Assembly (NCBI GenBank): GCA_023647555.1
Contig: JALRLY010000203.1
Coordinates: forward strand, 1 to 14,823
Direction of reading: 5' to 3'
Source of the DNA: Pancytospora philotis
Lineage: Eukaryota > Microsporidia
DNA length: 14,823 nt
A program made the translations under genes and the position numbers. Shown here piece after piece: positions 72 through 14,799 of this stretch; the stretch's first letter is position 1; every line of letters begins with the position of its first letter. The notes under the pieces were generated by a model. It was given only the letters and a program-made list of their open reading frames with translations, did no database searches and was not told where the DNA came from.

Positions 72-965
72 AAACAAACTGCAGGGTCTATTGCGGCCTA
101 TCTGCAGGTGAAATACGGGCTTCGCGATGGCGTCGATGGAAAGTCGCTTTTGGCCGCTCAGGCCACGTTACTGTACAGCGAGATAGAAAATAAAACTTGT
201 CACGCAAAGCTGTACAACGCACGCACGAATAAGCAGGCTTCGATTCCCGTTCGTCCATCTGGCTCAAGCGTGGAGACATCCGCCCGCAGGACGAGGCGCG
301 GTACTGTTATTTACATGATCGCAGCATGCTCGGTGGCGAGACCGGGGTGTGCTCGCACTGCCAGAGCCGCGTCAGGACGGTTGACCACTTGGCCACGCAA
401 TGCAAGCAGATGCTTTACCACGACCACATGCGCCGCCACAACAAAGCAGTTCGCTGTCTCCATCTGTGGTACTGCATAAAGTACGGGATCAAGACATTCC
501 CACGCAAGCGCAGCTATTCGGTCCAGGAGTTTGTATCGAACAAGAACGCTGAGATCAGGGTTGACACGCGAGTGCCGACGGGCATCAAGATCACGGCTTA
601 AAAGTCAGATATCTTGATACACGACAAGAAGCGCCGCGAAAACATCCTAGTAGCGGAGGGGATCATAAGCCAGGACCGATTAGCCACTGTAGAGTCAAAA
701 AAGAAGCGCAGGTACGACGTCTTAGCTAGCAAACTAGGCCAGGAGTACCGGTGTAAGACGCGCATCATACCGTACGCCATGGCATGGGACGGGCTGATCA
801 CGAAACACCACAAACGCTACGTACGAGACATCGGGATTCCCGAGTCCGTCGAAGCGTACATCCAGACGATAGTGCTCATGAAGACACTGGAGAGCATCTC
901 TCGAATACCGCCGCGGAGCTGCGCCAGACGATGTTGCAGAGGCGAAATCAGCGCTGGAAGCATAG
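72..965 (+). pseudogene. Decayed 3' end of an R2/R4/Dong-type non-LTR retrotransposon
   Basis: This is the C-terminal part of a retrotransposon polyprotein; the reverse transcriptase core is absent, so the copy is 5'-truncated. Similarity seems to begin near position 72 with a segment containing AYLQVKYGLRDG. A zinc knuckle C-x2-C-x8-H-x4-C lies at 350-403 (CSHC...DHLATQC), the spacing typical of R2-like elements. It is followed by RRHNKAVRCLHLW and a restriction-like endonuclease region with RIIPYAMAWDGL. The coding frame shifts around 230-243, resumes in another frame, meets an in-frame TAA at 599-601, shifts again around 890-903 and ends at TAG 963-965. The endonuclease PD pair reads SD (605-610) and the following acidic position is disturbed. 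Such elements copy themselves by nicking target DNA and reverse-transcribing in place; this copy cannot encode an active protein. It converges on the family A gene that ends at 1049. Confidence 0.85.
350..403 (+). other. CCHC zinc knuckle inside the retroelement relic
   Basis: The four metal ligands are intact: Cys at 350-352, Cys at 359-361, then His after eight residues and Cys at 401-403. This knuckle lies between the reverse transcriptase and the restriction-like endonuclease in R2, R4 and Dong elements and is the strongest single diagnostic in this relic. Confidence 0.8.
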
Positions 966-1048
966 GCGGAGCCGACGAGCATAGCTCAGGCCTGCGCTGG
1001 TCAAACGAAATAACAAAAATGCGAAGGATCACAATGGATTTACTTCCA

Positions 1049-2275
1049 TCACTCACAGTCATCGAGATGCCTGCCTTTATTTTGCGCAGCCCACTCAGCA
1101 TTTTCCACACGCACCTGCTCCAGCACTTCAGGCGTGATCCTGTAGTGTGCGCGCTCCCATGCGTTGAATATATTCAGCAGACTTGTGATAAAAACATCAA
1201 CCTCCTCGCTGAAACATTCACTCAGTTTGGCTTTAAACTCTGTGCCGTCATATTTAGCGTCCAGTTGTGTCACCCTTCCGTCGCACTGGAGGTACGCGAG
1301 CGAGAAGAAGCCGACATCCTCAAATATCCTTAGCACCTTAGAGGAAAACGGTTTCCCGCCCCAAGACAAACCAACCGCATCGAAATAAGAACGCAGCGCA
1401 TCTGCGAACGCCTGGACCGTCATCTTCTCGTTGAACTCAATGCCAAAATTCAGCTTCCTAGACATCGCCTTGGCTAGGGTAAAGGCATGGAAGACGCCAG
1501 CATCGAATACAAGCCTGCTGAGCAATATGTTATTTTCTTCTCCAAGCATCGTGGGGCGCTCACCAGTTGCGAACAGCTTCTTTAAGCCCTCCAGGTCTTG
1601 CAAGGTGATGAAGCCCCCAGGCTGCGTCCGCTCCTCTTCTATATCTTTCAAGAAGGCCACAAAGCGCTCGTCTTCGAGGTAGAAATCATAGAGCCGCGAC
1701 TTGTGAGGCTCGCCATCGCCCTGCTCTATCTGCAAGTTCGCCGCAATCATACCGTAAAGTGGCTCGATGAGATCGTTTAAAAAGTGACTTACGAAAAGAT
1801 GGGTTAGCGGTTTCTTCTCTTTTCTGGGGTTAGCAGCCAATGGCTGCGGACCGTCTGCCGTACTCGGTGCGCGGGGATCACCTCTCAGCCTCTTGCTACG
1901 TAGCGCGCCCTTGCCGTATGCGGGGCTGTAGAAGCCCAGATCGCATGCCTGCATGAGATCCCACCATACCACCCTGTGCGGCAGATGGGGAGCCCAACGC
2001 GGATCCTTCACTCGGCACTTGTTGATTTGCTTAAAGAGCTCCACCGCCGAATCACCTCTCGGGGCATCTTGGCTGAAGCAGCTGGCAGTCTCTCCGGTGC
2101 TCGCAGCTGCATCACGCTGGCGCTTCTGCAGATCTTTTATCCACGAGATCCCCTCATCGTGCTTGTGCTCGTGGTCCCAATGACCCTCGGCTGAGTGGAT
2201 GCGAAGGGAGCCGGCCGAGGAAACCGCCAACCACAGTATTCCCAGGAAGAAAAGCAGCGGGCGCAACACCAACAT
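1049..2275 (-). CDS. Secreted six-cysteine protein, family A copy 1 (unknown function)
   Basis: The product is 408 aa and not recognised. A signal peptide covers residues 1-22 (hydrophobic FFLGILWLAVSSAG). A short His/acidic segment follows (HWDHEHKHDEG, residues 32-42), then a mostly helical domain with no further membrane segment, so it is predicted to be secreted or to sit in the endomembrane lumen. There are exactly six cysteines (66, 87, 111, 331, 354, 407). All six are matched in the neighbouring copy at 2937-4145, which suggests up to three disulfides. The best conserved blocks are FYSPAYGK (residues 115-122), NDLIEPLYGMIAANL, and HAFTLAKAM continuing through FADALRSYFD (263-299). The start is supported by the paralogue and by CCCC directly before the ATG, with TATAAAA at -21 to -27. 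The stop lies 83 bp from the end of the convergent retroelement relic. The gene is certain; its function is open. Confidence 0.9.
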   Translation of the reverse strand: MLVLRPLLFFLGILWLAVSSAGSLRIHSAEGHWDHEHKHDEGISWIKDLQKRQRDAAASTGETASCFSQDAPRGDSAVELFKQINKCRVKDPRWAPHLPHRVVWWDLMQACDLGFYSPAYGKGALRSKRLRGDPRAPSTADGPQPLAANPRKEKKPLTHLFVSHFLNDLIEPLYGMIAANLQIEQGDGEPHKSRLYDFYLEDERFVAFLKDIEEERTQPGGFITLQDLEGLKKLFATGERPTMLGEENNILLSRLVFDAGVFHAFTLAKAMSRKLNFGIEFNEKMTVQAFADALRSYFDAVGLSWGGKPFSSKVLRIFEDVGFFSLAYLQCDGRVTQLDAKYDGTEFKAKLSECFSEEVDVFITSLLNIFNAWERAHYRITPEVLEQVRVENAEWAAQNKGRHLDDCE

Positions 2276-2346
2276 GGGGAAAACATATTCCGAGATTTTA
2301 TATCGCGTATTGTGATGCGCACACCTGGGCGCATCAGATATTTAAT
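2276..2346 (-). promoter_or_regulatory. Promoter block of family A copy 1
   Basis: On the minus strand CCCC abuts the ATG, TATAAAA lies at -21 to -27 (2296-2302), CAGGTGTGC at -44 to -52 (2319-2327), ATCTGAT at -58 to -64 (2333-2339) and ATTAA at about -67 (2342-2346). Each element recurs at the same distance upstream of copy 2. The CAGGTG core resembles an E-box, but the bound factor is unknown. Confidence 0.65.
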
Positions 2347-2936
2347 CAATGCATCTTCTGGAGCCAGCCAGTGACGCAACCCGACGTGTAGAAAAATTGT
2401 CACGTAAGCCAGCCAGTGTGTACTAGACCTGGAGATGAATAAATCTGTTTTAACAACAGCAGCCCATTCTAATTTAATGAGCAGTTATTTCAAGGTTGAT
2501 GCGGTATCCAACTGGTCATTTCTTCCATCGCCACCGCAAGACCGGTGGCCACTTGACAACCTAGTGTACCGCGCTGTGCCACAACTACCAGCGGCAGCAC
2601 ACCGAGGCCATCTGGTGCGCTCACCTCTATCCTTGAGGGAAGAACGGGCCGAGGGGCCCCCGCGCGTGCGGAGCCACGCAGTCCGAGAGGTAATTGCCGA
2701 TAAGAGGGGCAAATTCATATTCAAAATGCGTGTAGTTCTAAGTCCCTCGCATCTAGAATCGCGCTTAGCACGCAACAGTGGTTGCCAAGGTAAGCAGCGC
2801 TCACTAGCCACTGAGAAGCTTGTAAAGGCGCCATTGCTACACAAACTCTACCAGCTTCCGTTTTGCCAAATTTCTGTCTGTACAGCAAATTCGTATGGAA
2901 CAAGAGCAAATAATCGAAAACCTCTAAGCAGTTTAC
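2347..2936. other. Inter-paralogue spacer with no convincing gene
   Basis: Open frames of 172 codons (plus, 2435-2953) and 119 codons (minus, 2485-2844) overlap each other here. The longer one has no C-run or A/T box before its ATG, runs into the 3' end of family A copy 2, and encodes nothing recognisable. The middle is GC-rich, which lengthens frames by chance on both strands. A perfect 7-bp inverted repeat (GCCACCG / CGGTGGC) lies at 2530-2549. The stretch could hold an unrecognised or decayed gene, but nothing in it can be supported. Confidence 0.4.
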
Positions 2937-4145
2937 TTACCCACACTTACTGAGGGGCTCACCCTTGTTCTGCGCAGCCCATTTAGCGTTTTTCGCCCTT
3001 GTCTGCTCCAGCGCTTCGGACGTGATCCCGTAGGGCGCACGCCCCCACGCATTGAACACATTCAGCAGGCTCGTGATAAAAACATCCACCTCGTCGATGA
3101 AGCATTCGCTCAGATCGGCCTTCCGCTCCTCGCCATTGTACTTAGCATTCATCTGAGTCGTCTTTCCGTCGCATTTAACGTACGCGAGCGAAAAGAAGCC
3201 GACGTCCTCGAACATCCTCTCCACGTCGAAAGAAAACTTCTTCGCACCAAAAGACCTGCCAACGGTGTCGAAATAAGAGCGCAGCGCATCTGCAAATGCC
3301 TGGACCGTCATCTCCTCGTCGAACTCAACGCCAAAATTTAGCCTCTTGGACATCGCCTTGGCCAGAGTGAAGGCATGGAATACGCTAGTGTCGAACACGA
3401 ACCTGTTGAATAGTAGCTTCTCCTCGTCACTCAGCTTTCTGAGGCTCTTGCTGGCCGATAACAGCTCCTTCAGGTCTTCCAGCTCCTGCAGTGTGATGAA
3501 ACCAGCGGACTGCGTCCTCCCCTCCTTCACATCTTCCAAGAAATCCAGGAATCCAGCGTCATTAACGTAGAAATCATAGAGCCGCGACTTCTGGGGCTCG
3601 CCACCGATCTCCTCGGGCTTCAAGTCCGCTGCGATCATACTATAGAGAGGCTCGATGAGGCCATTCAGGAAGTAGCCTACGTACAGAGCGGGATACAGAC
3701 CCGCCTCCCCCCTGGAGTTGGCAAGCATGGACTGCGCGTCGCCTCTAAGCCTCCTGCCGTACGGCTCATCCTTGCCGTATGCGGGGCTGTGGAAATCAGG
3801 ATTGCACACCTGCATGAGGTCCGGCTGCTGCACTTCCTGCTCCGAACTAAGCGTGGACCGCGCATCCTCCGCGCGGCACTGATTGATTTCCTTGAGGTGC
3901 TCTGCTGCAGAGCTGCCCTTCGAGGCATCCCGGTTGAAGCAGTTGCCAGTTCTCGCGGAGCTCTCGACTGCGTTACGCTGATGCCTTCCCAGCTCTTTGA
4001 TCCACTGGATTCCTTTGCTGTGCTGGTGCCTGTGGTGCCTCCGGGGCCTAGAATTATGGGACGGGTGGGCAACGAGCGCACCGTCCAAGGAAACCGCCAG
4101 CCACAACATCGCCAGGAAGTAAAGCATCGAGCGCACTATCAACAT
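2937..4145 (-). CDS. Secreted six-cysteine protein, family A copy 2 (unknown function)
   Basis: This is the tandem paralogue of the gene at 1049-2275: 402 aa with a signal peptide at residues 1-22 (FLAMLWLAVSLDG). A basic His-rich stretch follows at about residues 34-43 (PRRHHRHQHS), where copy 1 is His/acidic. It has exactly six cysteines (69, 90, 114, 325, 348, 401), each aligning with one in copy 1. The frame stays open 11 codons further upstream, but the paralogue begins MLVLR against MLIVR here, and CCC directly precedes this ATG with TATAAAA at -21 to -27, so the internal Met is chosen. Most divergence lies in the N-terminal third and around residues 126-155; the C-terminal two thirds are well conserved. 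RRLRGD at 131-136 contains an RxLR-like string, which copy 1 has as KRLRGD; this may be chance. The function is unknown, and a secreted, possibly host-facing role is inferred from the architecture. Confidence 0.9.
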   Translation of the reverse strand: MLIVRSMLYFLAMLWLAVSLDGALVAHPSHNSRPRRHHRHQHSKGIQWIKELGRHQRNAVESSARTGNCFNRDASKGSSAAEHLKEINQCRAEDARSTLSSEQEVQQPDLMQVCNPDFHSPAYGKDEPYGRRLRGDAQSMLANSRGEAGLYPALYVGYFLNGLIEPLYSMIAADLKPEEIGGEPQKSRLYDFYVNDAGFLDFLEDVKEGRTQSAGFITLQELEDLKELLSASKSLRKLSDEEKLLFNRFVFDTSVFHAFTLAKAMSKRLNFGVEFDEEMTVQAFADALRSYFDTVGRSFGAKKFSFDVERMFEDVGFFSLAYVKCDGKTTQMNAKYNGEERKADLSECFIDEVDVFITSLLNVFNAWGRAPYGITSEALEQTRAKNAKWAAQNKGEPLSKCG

Positions 4146-4216
4146 GGGCAGAGCAGGTCCCCAGCTTTTATACTGCATATATTGATGTGCACACCTGTTC
4201 GTATCAGATGATTAAT
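4146..4216 (-). promoter_or_regulatory. Promoter block of family A copy 2
   Basis: On the minus strand CCC abuts the ATG at 4145. TATAAAA is at 4166-4172, CAGGTGTGC at 4189-4197, ATCTGAT at 4203-4209 and ATTAA at 4212-4216. These are the same distances from the start codon as in copy 1, while the sequence between the elements has drifted. Confidence 0.65.
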
Positions 4217-5072: not shown

Positions 5073-5702
5073 CTAATCGCTGGGATGGGCCGCCTTTCTG
5101 CACTTCTCGCAGTACCATCTGCCGGTGGGGACGGCCGAGAGCCCCATGCATTTGTAGTGGTACCAGCGCACCGTGCAGTCGGGGGCGTCGCAGCAGATGA
5201 GCAGGCCGCCGTCGTTCGTTTTGCAGGCGCACACCCTAGAGGCAAGCGGCACCTCCTCCTTGATGCGGACCAGCGAGCAGCCGTCCGGCGCCAGCTTCTT
5301 GATGTTGAGCAGACAGCCGCTGAGCTTGTCGGACTCCTCCAGGTTGCCGATCTGCGTGCCCAGGCAGCGCATGAATTTTTTGATGATCTTTATCTTCTGC
5401 TTTATGCAGCGCGCGAGGCGCTTCTGGACGCGCATGTACGCGTCTGCATCGTGGTTGGGGATCTGGCGCAGAATTTTCCTGAACTTGGCGAGGCAGTAGG
5501 AGTGGCGCTTCTTGGCGCGCTTTATGCGCCGCTCGAAGTAGTTGGCGTCGAGCGGGAACTGCTGGATGCTGTTCAGCATGTTGTCGTAGATGTCCATGGG
5601 TATTTTTTCGCTGGCCGAGATCTGCGCTTGCAGTTCCCGGGCCGACTGCAAATTTTGCGGCTGATCGGGATTGTGATACGGGGTGGCAGCAGAGAGGAGC
5701 AT
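5073..5702 (-). CDS. ING-family protein with C-terminal PHD finger (histone-tail reader subunit)
   Basis: The product is 209 aa. Residues 158-201 form a PHD finger with a complete C4HC3 zinc set: Cys158, Cys160, Cys171, Cys176, His182, Cys185, Cys198 and Cys201. The spacing and the WYHYKC...GLSAVPTGRWYCEKC pattern are those of ING/Yng proteins. The N-terminal half is helical and basic (YFERRIKRAKKRHS), like the ING N-terminal domain. ING proteins are nuclear subunits of histone acetyltransferase or deacetylase complexes that read histone H3 trimethylated at Lys4. Unusually, the aromatic cage position that is Tyr in animal ING PHD fingers is Gly here (NDGGLLICCD), although the second cage Trp (Trp180) is kept. 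The frame opens nine codons earlier, but the ATG at 5702 has CCGCCCAGT directly before it, so it is preferred. Which of the Yng1, Yng2 or Pho23 roles it fills cannot be told. Confidence 0.87.
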   Translation of the reverse strand: MLLSAATPYHNPDQPQNLQSARELQAQISASEKIPMDIYDNMLNSIQQFPLDANYFERRIKRAKKRHSYCLAKFRKILRQIPNHDADAYMRVQKRLARCIKQKIKIIKKFMRCLGTQIGNLEESDKLSGCLLNIKKLAPDGCSLVRIKEEVPLASRVCACKTNDGGLLICCDAPDCTVRWYHYKCMGLSAVPTGRWYCEKCRKAAHPSD

Positions 5703-5849
5703 ACTGGGCGGATGCGTATGCACGCACATGCTTCATATTATAAACTGTATCTCTGGCTGGGCTTATCTTCTAGACAGAATATTGTTACCACATCGACCCA
5801 GGACCGAAAATAAAACAACGCTTCTCTGCTAAAGGCGTGCTCAAAAAAT

Positions 5850-6847: not shown

Positions 6848-7813
6848 TCATTTGGACTCGCCCCCGGCGTCGTCCTGCCGCTGCTTTATCCTGCCCCTCG
6901 CCTCCTTTATTTCTCTGCGCCGCTCCTCGACACGCGAGACGAACGACTTGCTGTCGCTGCACTTTCCGGTCTTCATCAGATACGAGGCCAGCCGGGCCGT
7001 CCGGTAGTTGTCGTAGCAGAACTGCATCTCCTGGACAAGCGCAACGATAGACTTCTTGAGCACAAACTCGCGCATCTTGAAGAACTCGTTCGTCTTGAGC
7101 TCCTCGAGGTCGGTGATCCCCCACGGGTAGTCGCGCTCCTTCGCCACCGTCTCAGCAACTACCGGGCCGAGCACCACGAAGAACGGCGCGTCGCAGCCGT
7201 CGGCCTTGCCATCGAACACGCTGACTCCGTGCGCATCGAGCTGCTCCCTGAGCTCGTGCCGCATGCGCGCCATGCACTCGGCGTCGAGCAGATCGGCCTT
7301 GGCGACCAGCGGCACGAGGCAGCAGTACTTCGACACGGCCTTCATCGCCTCGATGTCGGCGGGCCTGATGCGCATCAGCGGCTCCAGCATGTAGAAGCAG
7401 ACGTGCACGCGCCTGTCGCTGATGGCACCCGGCACCTTGTGCTCGGACTGCTCCTCGTAGTCCGCGAACTGGCGCTCCAGCAGCTCGGCGATCGGCAGGC
7501 GGCTCTCGGCCGCGTTCACGCAGTCGCCGATGTTGTCCACCTCGTAGAGCCGCAGCTCCACCGCGAACTCGCTCTCCACCACCTCGAGCTGCGAGAGCTG
7601 CACGTTGCACACGTCCTCGTCGTACCAGTACTTGCCCGAGGCCTTCTCCGCGAACGGCGCCTGCTTCAGCGCCCCGATGCCGAACAGATTCGCTAGCAGC
7701 GTGGTCTTGCCGAGCCCGTGGGACCCGGCGACCATGACGTTCAGCGAGAACCCGCGCGCCTTGAGCGTCGCGAGGCGCAGCTTCGGCAGACTCGACACTC
7801 CTATGCCTGGCAT
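6848..7813 (-). CDS. Septin GTPase with a degenerate G3 motif
   Basis: The product is 321 aa. Septins are GTP-binding proteins that polymerise into filaments at membranes and division sites. The P-loop GSHGLGKT is at residues 30-37 after a typical RGFSLNVMV strand. The septin-specific RRVHVCFYMLEPL is at about 134-146, followed by DIEAMKAV, the G4 motif AKAD (171-174), and near the C-terminus RDYPWG and NYRTARL. A short charged, coiled-coil-like tail closes it. The G3 region reads DNIGD (93-97) where most septins have DTPGFGD, so it looks two residues short and lacks the Pro-Gly. The longer open frame to 8113 is rejected because it lies entirely over the opposite-strand gene; starting at 7813 gives the expected septin N-terminus. 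It is divergent from the SNARE-like gene, with 46 bp between starts. Microsporidia keep a small set of septins; which one this is cannot be told. Confidence 0.9.
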   Translation of the reverse strand: MPGIGVSSLPKLRLATLKARGFSLNVMVAGSHGLGKTTLLANLFGIGALKQAPFAEKASGKYWYDEDVCNVQLSQLEVVESEFAVELRLYEVDNIGDCVNAAESRLPIAELLERQFADYEEQSEHKVPGAISDRRVHVCFYMLEPLMRIRPADIEAMKAVSKYCCLVPLVAKADLLDAECMARMRHELREQLDAHGVSVFDGKADGCDAPFFVVLGPVVAETVAKERDYPWGITDLEELKTNEFFKMREFVLKKSIVALVQEMQFCYDNYRTARLASYLMKTGKCSDSKSFVSRVEERRREIKEARGRIKQRQDDAGGESK

Positions 7814-7859
7814 GCTGTGTTGTTGCGCGCCGCATTTATCGAGGCAGCACAAACAAACA
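7814..7859. promoter_or_regulatory. 46-bp divergent promoter between septin and SNARE-like genes
   Basis: Both transcription units must start from, or beyond, this very short gap. It contains GCATTTATCG in the middle and the A-rich ACAAACAAACA just before the plus-strand ATG. Neither side carries the CCC signal seen at the secreted-protein genes. Confidence 0.5.
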
Positions 7860-8117
7860 ATGGCAGACACCGCGGCGCTCCTCCAGAGCGCGGAGAGCGA
7901 GCTCAGGGAGATCGACGGCGAGCTGGACCTCCACGGCGAGAAGTTCGCCGCGCTCCAGGACAAGATCGGGCGGCACAGGCGCTCGCTGCACGCCAACGAG
8001 GTGGCCCTCGGCGCGCTCAACCAGACAACGGGGATCGGCAAGTTTGTTGTTGTTTTAGTTGTGATAGCCGCTGCGTTCAGCGGCGCCTGTGTGCTGCTGA
8101 GCGGATGGCACAAATAA
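7860..8117 (+). CDS. Small tail-anchored coiled-coil protein, SNARE-like
   Basis: The product is 85 aa. Residues 8-53 form one amphipathic helix with hydrophobic heptads (LREIDGELDLHGEKFAALQ and onward). Residues 62-80 form a single C-terminal membrane anchor (VVVLVVIAAAFSGACVLL) with only five residues after it. This is the layout of a minimal SNARE: cytosolic helix, membrane at the C-terminus. A DLH followed six to seven residues later by Leu loosely resembles the Vti1-type Qb helix; there the central Gln layer would be Glu here. SNAREs pair in four-helix bundles to fuse vesicles. A generic tail-anchored coiled-coil protein is the alternative. The frame is open upstream to 7605, but that part is antisense to the septin. 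The stop codon overlaps an AATAAA (8113-8118). Confidence 0.6.
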   Translation: MADTAALLQSAESELREIDGELDLHGEKFAALQDKIGRHRRSLHANEVALGALNQTTGIGKFVVVLVVIAAAFSGACVLLSGWHK

Positions 8118-10728: not shown

Positions 10729-11835
10729 ATGCTCGGAGCAAGTACAACAAGAAAACGCGTAGCAATAGCAGGAACGGCCGTTGGACTGGCAGCGCTGGCA
10801 TGCTGTACTATAATAGCGATGCGTGGCCGTCAAAAGCCGAGTACGCCTGAGAGCCGGCCGGCTGAGCCCGAGCAGACGGCTAGTACAAGCAGCGGAGGCA
10901 GCAGTCGTAGCGATAGCGGCTATGGGAGCAGTGGATCCTCCTCGCCCTCCCCGTCGCCCTCCCCGCCTCTGCCGAGAACTATAGTGTACAGCCCCGTGGC
11001 CTATAAAAATAGCGGACTGAGCGGCTACGGGCTTGCAAAGGGCGAAGAGTTCATGCGGCAACAGCTGGAAAACTCGTCGGTCTATGATGTGGCGGGCGAT
11101 GGCCACTGCGGCTTCTACTCCCTCTGGGTGTGCCTCTATCCGTACCTGAAGAGCCCGCAGAACCCGGTGCACAACCGCTTCTTTGCCAGGGGCGGTTATG
11201 AGGGCCTGCAGGCGGCAGTCGACAAACACGCCCCGCAGCCCTTCGACCCCGCGAAAACGCTGGAGGATCTAGAGCAGCAGCTGGCCGCGGACTCGGCGCC
11301 CGACGTGCGGGAGTTTATGAGACAGCACAGCGTGAGCGCCGTGCGCTGCCTCAGAGCGTTCATGCTAAAGCATGCGCTCGCAGATCCCGAGTATGCCAAA
11401 GTGCTGCTCCAGGGCGCTGGCAAGGAGCATGCGGATGCATATAATAATAGGCGTAAAGCTGTGGATACGGGGAATGACACAGTGGAGGTTTTTAATCAAA
11501 ATATCCGGGACTACGTCGAGCGCATTTATCTGGCGAGGTATCTGAAGCCCGGGCCGGCGGCGGGGGAAACATGGCTAAGCAACGAATCGCTGGTAATCGT
11601 GGCGCGAGAGCTTGGCGTGATTATTCACATGCTAGAGACATCCGCGTCAGTCGTTTACCACTACCACCCCCAGAGGGCGAGTGAGGACGGACCCTGGCTT
11701 ATCGACGTCGAATCCCCGCGGGCAGGTGGCCATAGGGCCCGCTTGGATGACCCTAATTATCCGCACATCTATCCAATTCTCAGGGGCAAAGCCCACTTCA
11801 ATGCAATCAGTGACCAGCGCGAGCATGTTCAGTAA
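10729..11835 (+). CDS. Membrane-anchored OTU-type cysteine protease (putative deubiquitinase)
   Basis: The product is 368 aa. A short basic N-terminus is followed by one membrane helix (about 11-31), a Ser/Pro/Gly-rich stalk (37-82) and an OTU domain (about 118-362). Catalytic residues are visible: DVAGDGHCGFYSL, with Asp124 and nucleophile Cys127 in the D-x-x-C spacing of otubain-like enzymes, and the C-terminal KAHFNAI with His356 and Asn358. The intervening WLSNESLVIVARELGVIIHML matches the OTU segment preceding the histidine strand. OTU enzymes cleave ubiquitin or ubiquitin-like proteins from targets. The anchor places this one on a membrane, or it is exported if the helix acts as a cleaved signal. 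Between the Cys and His blocks it is longer than minimal OTU domains. It begins a same-strand run with the two family B genes. The substrate and host or parasite target are unknown. Confidence 0.87.
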   Translation: MLGASTTRKRVAIAGTAVGLAALACCTIIAMRGRQKPSTPESRPAEPEQTASTSSGGSSRSDSGYGSSGSSSPSPSPSPPLPRTIVYSPVAYKNSGLSGYGLAKGEEFMRQQLENSSVYDVAGDGHCGFYSLWVCLYPYLKSPQNPVHNRFFARGGYEGLQAAVDKHAPQPFDPAKTLEDLEQQLAADSAPDVREFMRQHSVSAVRCLRAFMLKHALADPEYAKVLLQGAGKEHADAYNNRRKAVDTGNDTVEVFNQNIRDYVERIYLARYLKPGPAAGETWLSNESLVIVARELGVIIHMLETSASVVYHYHPQRASEDGPWLIDVESPRAGGHRARLDDPNYPHIYPILRGKAHFNAISDQREHVQ

Positions 11836-12056
11836 TGGGTACGGGGTCTCTATGCAAGGCTCTACTAACACTGATAAGAGAGGTAAGATTAAACATGGTC
11901 AAGCGTTTGTTATTTTGAAACCCCGCCAATTTTCTGTGAGCTGCCTCGCGCTAGCTACTCCACGAATAGCCGCTGATTAGCTGTATAATACGCGTCTGCT
12001 GTGCATAAGCCATGGGCGTGCTGTCCTTGTCGAAAACCTATCAACGGCGAATACTC

Positions 12057-12075
12057 AAATATTTTCACCCGCCCC
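12057..12075 (+). promoter_or_regulatory. A/T box plus CCCC start signal of family B copy 1
   Basis: AAATATTTT spans -19 to -11, followed by CACCCGCCCC ending directly at the ATG. This fixes the start at 12076 rather than at the upstream GTG-opened frame. Confidence 0.55.
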
Positions 12076-13509
12076 ATGTTCCTGGCGACAATTTATGTAC
12101 TGTTTGTGCGCAGCCACCTCGCCAAAGACGATGGGGCAGCGACCGCATACGGCTTTACATGCACCGACTATACTGAATTCGGCGTACCCAGTCGGCCGGG
12201 GCTGAACGCGCTGGAGAAGCAGGTGCTCGATCCGCTCTGCAAATTCTGCATGGAATATACGAGCCCTGAAATACCACGAGCCCTAATCGATGCGAGAATG
12301 GGCGTGCCGTCAGCTGACGATAAGTCCTGCTGTCTCGTTTATGCGGCGGCGCGGCACTATCAGCAAGCGATACTGCTGCAGCGGCTGCAGGCCGATCTTG
12401 GTTTCGCCAGCCGCCAGCTGCTGGCTAAGCTGCTCCGCGCCGATTATCTGGAGCACCTCAGGGGAGCGTCGCTGGCTGCTATCAATTCCGATACGCTTGG
12501 TTTTGGATCGCGCGGCACCGATGCGCATCAGGCATTCGTCGACCTTGTGGATGCACCCAGCAGCGGGCTGGAAACGGCCTACGATGACATGGAAGCCAGG
12601 ATGAACGCCGATTGCAGCTTAGAGCTAAAAGAGTACGTCGTGGCGAATGAAGCGGCGAGCAACAGTATAGATTACGCACTTGTGACGATCGCCCGCAGTA
12701 AAGAGACGACTCTCAATACGCCAGAATTTTTGCGCCTGTTCGACTACTGGCTCAGCGACCACGACAGCTTTAAGCGGCGCTACGATGTTATTCGCGGCTA
12801 TCTCAAGGTGCTGATGCTGCCCGAGTCCCTTATCAGGCATCACCAGAACCTGCTCAGGAATGCGCTCGCACAGCACGTCATCAACAAAGACAGGCGCGAA
12901 TATCTGGACCTCTACTGCTCATTCAGAGCGCCGAAAGGCGCCACCATTTCGATAGTTCGGCTGTTCGAAAACTATGACTTCGAGATGTTCAGTCCGCATT
13001 TCGTGCTGCTCTGCGTCGGGCGTGTGCGACGAAGCGGCCTTCCGAAGAGCAGTAGAAGCGTAGAAAATATCTGGAGAAAGTACCTGCAGGACGCACCCAC
13101 TTTCCTGAAGAAGCCGAGCGTGCTGAAGGAGCGCCGCGAGCTCTTCAAAGAAATTCCCCACTGGTTTATGCGAGAGGTCTTCGTGTTCCTGGACGGGTGC
13201 CGCGAAGACTATCCGAACGGGAACAAGATCATGGGGGACCTTATGGGCATGCTGGACTTCGACGTGTTCTTTCACATTTTAAAAGAGCTGGATGAATACG
13301 GAGAGCAGGATAGGCTGATGCATTTCATGCTATTTTACCTTGACTGCGGCAAGGTAGAGGGCTATTTGGAGCAGCTACAGTCAGGCTATTATTTAAAATC
13401 TCCTGAAAGGGACGTTAGCCTATTTGCACTCAAGCTGAAGCAAAAGATGAGAGTGCTCATCAACAATCGCCTTGGTATCGCGGGCACCAGCAGCCTGTCG
13501 CTGGACTAG
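12076..13509 (+). CDS. Secreted helical protein, family B copy 1 (unknown function)
   Basis: The product is 477 aa and not recognised. It opens with a short hydrophobic signal (FLATIYVLFV) and AKDDGA, then a long, mainly helical chain with no further membrane segment. The paralogue at 13717-14799 aligns without gaps over the first 70 residues: AK-x-DGA at 16-21, VLDPL at 50-54 and SPE at 63-65 coincide. Later shared blocks are ELKEY, SIDYAL/GIDYAL (near 196-201) and a F/L-D-Y/F-W...D-x-FKR block (about 221-233). The frame is open 25 codons further upstream, but the paralogue, the signal peptide and CCCC before the ATG all choose 12076. Cysteines are numerous but mostly not shared with the paralogue. 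Secretion and a lineage-specific role are inferred; nothing indicates an enzyme. Confidence 0.88.
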   Translation: MFLATIYVLFVRSHLAKDDGAATAYGFTCTDYTEFGVPSRPGLNALEKQVLDPLCKFCMEYTSPEIPRALIDARMGVPSADDKSCCLVYAAARHYQQAILLQRLQADLGFASRQLLAKLLRADYLEHLRGASLAAINSDTLGFGSRGTDAHQAFVDLVDAPSSGLETAYDDMEARMNADCSLELKEYVVANEAASNSIDYALVTIARSKETTLNTPEFLRLFDYWLSDHDSFKRRYDVIRGYLKVLMLPESLIRHHQNLLRNALAQHVINKDRREYLDLYCSFRAPKGATISIVRLFENYDFEMFSPHFVLLCVGRVRRSGLPKSSRSVENIWRKYLQDAPTFLKKPSVLKERRELFKEIPHWFMREVFVFLDGCREDYPNGNKIMGDLMGMLDFDVFFHILKELDEYGEQDRLMHFMLFYLDCGKVEGYLEQLQSGYYLKSPERDVSLFALKLKQKMRVLINNRLGIAGTSSLSLD

Positions 13510-13605: not shown

Positions 13606-13700
13606 ATTTAGAGTCCGCGCCCATGAATGCATTTACTAAGGCAAATTTCCTTCGGTCGCCAGCTTGAATTTTGACGGCGGCGTGCCTGATGACTCTAAAT
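13606..13700. repeat. 10-bp inverted repeat flanking the copy 2 upstream region
   Basis: ATTTAGAGTC (13606-13615) and GACTCTAAAT (13691-13700) are exact reverse complements separated by 75 bp. The second arm overlaps the A/T box of family B copy 2. Regulatory palindrome, insertion footprint and chance are all possible. Confidence 0.5.
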
Positions 13701-13716
13701 TTTTTGCCTGCCCCGG
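13697..13716 (+). promoter_or_regulatory. A/T box plus CCCC start signal of family B copy 2
   Basis: AAATTTTTT lies at -20 to -12 and CCCC at -6 to -3 before the ATG at 13717, the same layout as at 12057-12075. Confidence 0.55.
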
Positions 13717-14799
13717 ATGGTGCTGGTTACACTGTTTGCGCTGCTGGTGCACTCGCTGCCAGCTAAACACGATGGTGCGATAGATGCGCGCCTTTACAGG
13801 ATAAGCGAATACGGACGTTTCGGTGCCACTGACGCTTTTGATTTCAGTAATTTGGAGGAGCGGGTGTTGGATCCGCTTTACGGATATTCTGTGAAGCATA
13901 GCTCCCCTGAGACTCCGCAGACGATTATTGATGGCCAGCTGCTCATGATACCGGCAGAGGATAAGGCGCGCGATCTTATCTTTTCTGTGCTCAGCGATGG
14001 CAGCACGCCCTCGCTGCTCGATCGGCTGCTGAGCGAATTTGGCTATGGAGGCCACCTACTGCTGAAGAAAGTGTTCTATGAGCCTTATGTGCAGTATCTC
14101 AGAGCGCTTTCAGATGCAAAGCCCCAGGCACAAACGCATGACCCGAGCATCGATGGCTCTTCCGAACACCGGGTGTTCTCGCGGCTTGTTGGAAAGTCCA
14201 GTGAGAAACTGGATGGGATTTCCCAGGCAGTATCCATGAGAATCACCACCGAGCGCATAATAGAGCTGAAGGAGTACGCCGAGCACTACGAAAAAGTAAG
14301 TAACGGTATCGATTACGCACTGCTGACACTTTGGAGGTACTACCACGGAGACAAGAGACTGGTCCCAGAATACACTGACTTGCTAGATTTTTGGTTCGGC
14401 GACGATGACCGCTTCAAACGACAAATCAACACCATTTCTGACTACGCGAATATTCTGATGCGGCCCGGCTTGGTAGCACAGGAAAAGCTGACCGCTTTCA
14501 AAAAGCCGCTGTTTGAGCGTATTTTCTGCAGGAATTTGCCCGGGAGCTTCGGCTTATTCTGCACCTTCTTCACCAAGTATTATGCCAAATTTGTCGTGGC
14601 CAAATACTTGCCCAAATACGGGCTTAGAGTAAGCTTGAGCTTTATCAGCGACTACAGTGAGTTCGTATACGACACCAGTCCGAGCTTTCGCTATAACATA
14701 CAGTGCGTAACAAAACTGTACCAATGCGATGGGCAAAAAGTTGGCATGCAGAACTGCGCACACAGAGCATCCCTTGGGTACATAGCACACACACTATAG
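13717..14799 (+). CDS. Secreted helical protein, family B copy 2, shorter C-terminus
   Basis: The product is 360 aa, the paralogue of the gene at 12076-13509. The signal peptide is LVTLFALLVHSLPA, then AKHDGA at 16-21, VLDPL at 50-54 and SPE at 63-65. GIDYAL is near 197-202, and the LLDFWFGDDDRFKR block spans about 222-235. Similarity fades after about residue 300, around LFCTF against LYCSF in copy 1. The protein then ends about 117 residues sooner, with a Cys-containing tail (CVTKLYQCDGQ). AATAAA follows 11 nt after the stop, so the shorter end may be natural; a frameshift relative to copy 1 is the alternative. Function unknown. Confidence 0.86.
   Translation: MVLVTLFALLVHSLPAKHDGAIDARLYRISEYGRFGATDAFDFSNLEERVLDPLYGYSVKHSSPETPQTIIDGQLLMIPAEDKARDLIFSVLSDGSTPSLLDRLLSEFGYGGHLLLKKVFYEPYVQYLRALSDAKPQAQTHDPSIDGSSEHRVFSRLVGKSSEKLDGISQAVSMRITTERIIELKEYAEHYEKVSNGIDYALLTLWRYYHGDKRLVPEYTDLLDFWFGDDDRFKRQINTISDYANILMRPGLVAQEKLTAFKKPLFERIFCRNLPGSFGLFCTFFTKYYAKFVVAKYLPKYGLRVSLSFISDYSEFVYDTSPSFRYNIQCVTKLYQCDGQKVGMQNCAHRASLGYIAHTL

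Follow-up and report, generated by a model that had tools for sequence, protein, structure and literature searches.

A tandem gene pair of Pancytospora philotis belongs to a large family of secreted-like proteins with paired cysteines and an upstream TATA box

In microsporidia, a large gene family is one with at least ten homologous members in a genome, at least half of which carry a signal peptide or a transmembrane (TM) segment (PMC5423893, PMC10393165). Such families are strong candidates to supply the proteins with which these parasites meet their hosts. The host-exposed proteins of Nematocida parisii include 35 members of four large gene families (PMC5423893), and Wadi et al. (2023; PMC10393165) catalogued 39 such families in 13 species, among them Pancytospora philotis, a microsporidian that infects the intestine of the nematode Oscheius tipulae (PMC5179134). 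RNAi proteins are encoded in Pancytospora genomes (PMC10393165). Here we describe two tandem genes, copies A and B, on contig C67 of the 3.68-Mb, 83-contig P. philotis assembly; the window analyzed is the whole of this contig, 14,823 bases in length.

Like PanLGF1, of which PAPHI01_0471 is a member, NemLGF1 and others of the nematode-infecting microsporidia (PMC10393165), the family that includes A and B combines numerous paralogs within a single genome with signal-like N-termini and the lack of a known domain. With NemLGF1 and NemLGF5 of N. parisii (Reinke et al., 2017; PMC5423893) it has in common a putative signal peptide and membership of a large, possibly clade-specific family. Host exposure of NemLGF1 and NemLGF5 was measured in N. 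parisii, whereas for the A/B family we infer it, because members of large families in that species were measured to be host-exposed. We propose, with a probability of roughly 0.6, that A and B belong to a microsporidian large gene family whose products would be secreted, disulfide-stapled, exposed to the host and host-binding, and which grew in tandem behind a TATA-type promoter. Judged from sequence, a secreted, disulfide-stapled and host-exposed protein is the most likely product of either copy. Since copy number and signal-like N-termini fit the definition given above, PMC10393165 probably lists the family already. Families of this type are known; what is of interest here is the gain and loss of cysteines in pairs and the family's own kind of promoter. 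Neither feature was found in the portions of related literature compared, and no wider search was made on cysteines.

A tandem pair in a family of about 40 loci

Copies A (1049..2275, minus strand; 408 amino acids) and B (2937..4145, minus strand; 402 amino acids) encode secreted-like proteins that are 56% identical across 410 alignment columns, and both open reading frames (ORFs) lie where the initial annotation had placed them as a tandem pair. That annotation also set the end of B correctly at 4145: CCC stands immediately 5' of this ATG and a TATA box at -27, and extension of the ORF to 4178 would translate the TATA box as Tyr-Lys. Its description of the pair holds in other respects. Each copy contains exactly six cysteines (C66, C87, C111, C331, C354 and C407 in A), which align under three alignment modes, and the HAFTLAKAM block has the same letters in A and B. 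The N-terminus of either copy is signal-peptide-like by hydropathy, with a hydrophobic core whose Kyte-Doolittle 13-mer mean is 2.54 in A and 2.19 in B; the segment covers approximately residues 1-23 (2207..2275 in A and 4077..4145 in B, minus strand). A His-rich segment, delimited by sequence and His counts, spans residues 27-40 of A (2156..2197, minus strand) and residues 27-42 of B (4020..4067, minus strand), with 5 His in A and 7 in B within residues 21-60.

The P. philotis genome contains about 40 loci of the family to which A and B belong. Copy A as query returns 37 matches, and a C5-array member and the divergent member on C32, used likewise, add three loci, giving a union of 40; the definition of a large gene family asks for at least ten. 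Fourteen loci lie on C5, six on C73, four on C48, two each on C67, C3 and C10, and one each on ten more contigs. Same-strand arrays hold 26 of the 40 (C5 14, C73 6, and C67, C48 and C3 two each), the copy on C69 is interrupted by five stops, and C5 has two shortened copies, which looks like tandem birth and death of genes. Large gene families are typically, though not by definition, restricted to one clade. All named matches are from P. philotis, in word-based searches that are blind to distant relatives and two of which scored part of their candidates; family genes with PAPHI01_ names include PAPHI01_1998, 2002, 2004-2009, 2265, 2527 and 2769. One further match, C16:14143 (E 0.02), was left out of the family count.

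The alignment (MAFFT, three results) and the tree comprise 33 full-length members. Outside this set are L003 and L030, which are cut by contig ends, the shortened copies C5:24006 and C5:16301, and three loci found later, C10:44247, C54:32022 and C69:14356, the last with stops. By hydropathy, the N-terminal hydrophobic core scores 1.75 or more in all 33 members (the seven other loci fall outside the set), where the definition asks for a signal peptide or TM segment in at least half; 32 of them have no later 19-mer above 1.83.

With the 33 members as queries, Pfam yields weak, scattered matches at E 0.1 and at E 10, none common to more than two of them, and a Pfam search with ten window ORFs finds no known domain for the A/B family. 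Searches of PDB by sequence return nothing for A1 or A6 up to E 10 (nor for A1 at E 1). For A2 they return 20 weak antibody and geminin matches (E at least 0.015, approximately residues 36-94), which were judged to be chance. The family had been called unrecognised; as regards Pfam and PDB domains the description stands, but in a broader sense it is doubtful, the family fitting the criteria of the 39-family catalogue as set out in the text of PMC10393165.

Paired cysteines, a predicted helical core and purifying selection

Exactly six cysteines, earlier offered as a signature of the family, prove to be the trait of a small subclade, the number ranging from 3 to 9 across the 33 members. C111 (codon at 1943..1945) and its predicted partner C331 (1283..1285) are present in all 33. 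C87 (2015..2017) is present in 25 and its predicted partner C407 (1055..1057) in 26; both occur in 25 members, neither in seven, and C407 alone in one, L029, the most divergent member. C66 (2078..2080) is confined to A, B and L004 (3 of 33), and its predicted partner C354 (1214..1216) is found in the same three and in L029, where the alignment is doubtful; all six codons are on the minus strand. Of the six, L005, which is sister to A, B and L004, retains just C111 and C331, and a single disulfide is predicted for it. Two partial genes outside the count agree with this distribution: PAPHI01_1998 has C66, C87 and C111, and PAPHI01_2769 has C111, C331, C354 and C407.

On a tree built without the cysteine columns, C87 changes at least three times and C407 at least four times, and C66 and C354 share one common gain. 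Over random independent pairs of members, C87 and C407 go in the same direction in 2.6 of 3 on average and in opposite directions in none, with C407 unchanged in 0.4; an exact figure of 1.9e-6 for the C87/C407 table disregards relatedness. Because the cysteine positions appear and vanish in pairs, the disulfide stabilization envisaged in the initial annotation gains support as a prediction from sequence. The predicted disulfides are C111-C331, the sole invariant pair, C87-C407, and a clade-specific third staple, C66-C354. The main text of PMC10393165 contains neither the word cysteine nor the word disulfide, and that of PMC5423893 does not contain the word cysteine. The pairing supplies a concrete, testable disulfide map and a constraint on future models.

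Paired cysteines would also be in keeping with structural proteins of the spore wall, the polar tube or another part of the invasion apparatus, cross-linked through their cysteines and built into the spore instead of being sent to the host cytoplasm, with His-rich tails for adhesion or for the binding of metal. Disulfides are well suited to an extracellular coat, and the tandem arrays and the signal-like N-termini, without a TM segment in 32 of 33 members, fit such proteins too. Some 40 copies as divergent as these (mean identity 32% in residues 191-335) nevertheless exceed what would be expected of a structural coat, and we regard a spore-structural function as unlikely.

AlphaFold models of A and of P0006, a member of the C5 array, contain predicted helices at residues 194-201, 203-213, 225-236, 246-272, 287-303 and 312-328 of A and at residues 224-230, 233-241, 255-266, 276-302, 315-331 and 340-355 of P0006. 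The core helices occupy corresponding positions in these proteins, which are 18% identical, although the two models are not independent because their input alignments largely overlap in sequences. Between the signal segment and the core, the predicted local distance difference test score (pLDDT) is mostly below 50 in both. The helical core of A (1076..1696, minus strand; residues 194-400) is the best-conserved part of the family; by region, mean pairwise identity outside the cysteines is 14-32%. Fold matches of both models are weak and establish no known fold; of four further large families modelled in PMC10393165, only one resembled a solved structure.

OTU structures recur among these weak matches, as would be expected if the family consisted of secreted enzymes such as degenerate OTU-type cysteine proteases. 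A catalytic Cys/His set (with Asp) nonetheless fails at the level of the family, in which no His or Asp column attains 85% identity across the 33 members, and we consider an enzyme of this kind very improbable. The columns that do reach at least 85% identity number 19, are made up of M, Q, L, C, Y, F, A and W alone, and include no conserved catalytic set. Strong conservation is limited to hydrophobic residues, Cys and Gln, which favours a binding scaffold over an enzyme, and we think that these are secreted binding proteins in which a scaffold, and not an evident active site, is conserved.

The family is under purifying selection. The whole-gene ratio of nonsynonymous to synonymous divergence (dN/dS) is 0.26-0.42 in 12 of 12 close pairs (at least 53% identical), with a highest half-gene value of 0.49 and a dS of 0.58-1.08 that is partly saturated; these ratios are pairwise counts only, with no codon-model site test. 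The diversifying selection suggested earlier is thus not borne out, no positive selection being shown in these pairs. The faster divergence of the N-terminal part is confirmed: dN between A and B falls from 0.37 before residue 190 to 0.21 beyond it, and dS in the two parts is 0.90 and 0.99, respectively.

The same ratios bear on the possibility that the genes are a repeat family without a role in the host, amplified beside mobile elements and now decaying. Adjacent to copy A lies a sequence with 37 genome matches, and the interrupted C69 copy and the two shortened C5 copies could be products of such decay. Against this, 37 of the 37 stretches matched by copy A are free of internal stops, every close pair has a dN/dS in the range given above, and the TATA box described below has been retained. 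We give a decaying repeat very little credence.

A TATA-type core promoter

Copies A and B each have a TATAAAA box 27 nucleotides 5' of the ATG (2296..2302 and 4166..4172, respectively, minus strand), and the order TATAAAA, spacer, CCC, ATG is seen in both and in the related L003 and L004. TATA(A/T)A or TATTTAA occurs within 45 nucleotides before the first ATG in 22 of the 33 members, 19 of these at -25 to -29, and in 25 of 33 when up to two candidate starts are considered; as background, 4.4% of 8,713 ATGs have the motif in the fetched DNA, where some loci overlap and the family's own are counted too. In 17 of 33 (18 with two candidates) a CCC stands no more than six nucleotides from the first ATG, against a background of 4.4%. 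The TATA box is retained between members of about 20% protein identity.

Genome-wide, TATATAA-N14-20-CCATG has 15 sites (none for the reversed-pattern control), 11 of which coincide by position with family starts, and TATAAAA-N14-20-CCATG has 30 (control 6), four of which are A, B, L003 and L004. AAATTTT-N3-14-CCATG has 140 sites (control 4); by position comparison none of the 100 matches listed falls at a family start, and the remaining 40 may fall on contigs that hold 11 family loci. The window contains a second secreted-like multicopy family (12001-13509 and 13699-14799, plus strand), with 80 genome matches and AAATTT-type upstream signals. The likely starts of eight other window genes, and of eight members of this second family, all lack a TATA motif; AAATTT-like stretches occur at 6 of 8 and 7 of 8 of them, respectively. 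These starts were chosen by hand, and one gene is in both sets of eight.

AAATTT-like and CCC signals have been described in microsporidia (PMC2803860), and TATA boxes as such are not new, since the same paper cites TATA-like promoters in Nosema ceranae. The words TATA, promoter and upstream are absent from the main text of PMC10393165, and a literature search for TATA promoters of microsporidian secreted gene families matched only genome work on Mucorales. A TATA-type core promoter that is common to the members, unlike the AAATTT type of their neighbours, suggests co-expression. We tentatively advance, with some doubt, a more specific proposal: that this is a host-facing family with a core promoter of its own, its TATA box fixed near -27, as against the AAATTT-plus-CCC arrangement of the second secreted family and most genes of the contig, and that in parallel its nested disulfide staples were added or lost as whole pairs while mean identity elsewhere sank to 14-32%. 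If so, the TATA-type promoter would be an expression switch across the whole family. A family-specific TATA box also makes it testable whether the genes are activated as a block at one stage of infection.

A general association of TATA promoters with secreted genes is not supported: a signal-like N-terminus is encoded by 3 of 15 non-family TATA genes vs 5 of 20 AAATTTT genes, at a hydropathy cut-off that passes 30 of 33 family members. For this comparison, 9 of 26 non-family TATAAAA sites had been excluded beforehand (AATTT in the spacer) and 2 of 17 fetched TATA sites were removed (ORF under 40 amino acids); the 20 AAATTTT sites were hand-picked across the 100 listed of 140, and one, C9:10486, also has an upstream TATAAAA. 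The four non-family TATATAA sites precede three ORFs that look secreted by eye and one of 24 codons. Another secreted-like group (L063, L064, L066, L070 and L078), with a common N-terminal GPLN(I/L)(L/M) motif, has four genes behind TATAAAA sites and one behind an AAATTTT site.

Proposed role and neighbouring genes

As host-exposed binding proteins, the members of the A/B family would enter the secretory pathway through their signal peptides as soluble proteins, fold in the endoplasmic reticulum around a helical core that one to three nested disulfides hold together, and be exported, whether to the surface of the parasite or into its host cell, there to bind host molecules. The fast-evolving N-terminal part, His-rich in A and B, would present a variable face and the core a scaffold. 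Tandem duplication with gene birth and death would have enlarged the family, and the TATA-type core promoter would cause its members to be expressed together.

Several points weigh against this proposal. In P. philotis the family is known from genome sequence alone, and its signal peptides were judged on hydropathy. The models are of low confidence (mean pLDDT 53.0 and predicted template modelling score, pTM, 0.62 for A; 56.8 and 0.59 for P0006). Independent cysteine events are few: C87/C407 offers three pairs, and because there are only three the sign test falls short of significance (p 0.25-0.5), C66/C354 offers one, and the invariant C111/C331 offers no informative event for pairing; L029, moreover, departs from the paired pattern. 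Common descent of tandem copies may explain part of the promoter likeness. Finally, disulfides would be unstable in the reducing host cytosol, which makes a cytosolic effector less plausible than a protein at the surface, in the spore or in a lumen.

The second window family resembles the A/B family in being secreted-like, multicopy and on the same contig. A relationship between the two was considered and rejected, since they have no profile similarity (hhalign probability 0.3%, E 0.18). Judged by size, the second family is possibly NemLGF1 or PanLGF1. On contig C39, six of its matches repeat at equal scores 42,207 bases apart (47884-77675 and 90091-119882), which reflects either a recent duplication of some size or a duplicate in the assembly.

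The sequence that adjoins copy A (614-1000, plus strand) matches 37 places in the genome, counting its own, and several of these contain stops. Fragments at 108-1000 (plus strand) resemble, by a putative motif, the end of a retrotransposon of the type without long terminal repeats; Pfam finds no such domain there. A protein with an N-terminal TM-like stretch is encoded at 10729-11835 (plus strand) and has one weak relative on C75 (E 0.007); its motifs DGHCGFYSL ... HFNAIS are presumably OTU-like, and are unconfirmed by Pfam and PDB. On the minus strand, the window also encodes a PHD-finger protein at 5073-5729 (PF23011, E 8e-8) and a septin at 6848-8113 (PF00735, E 4e-41).
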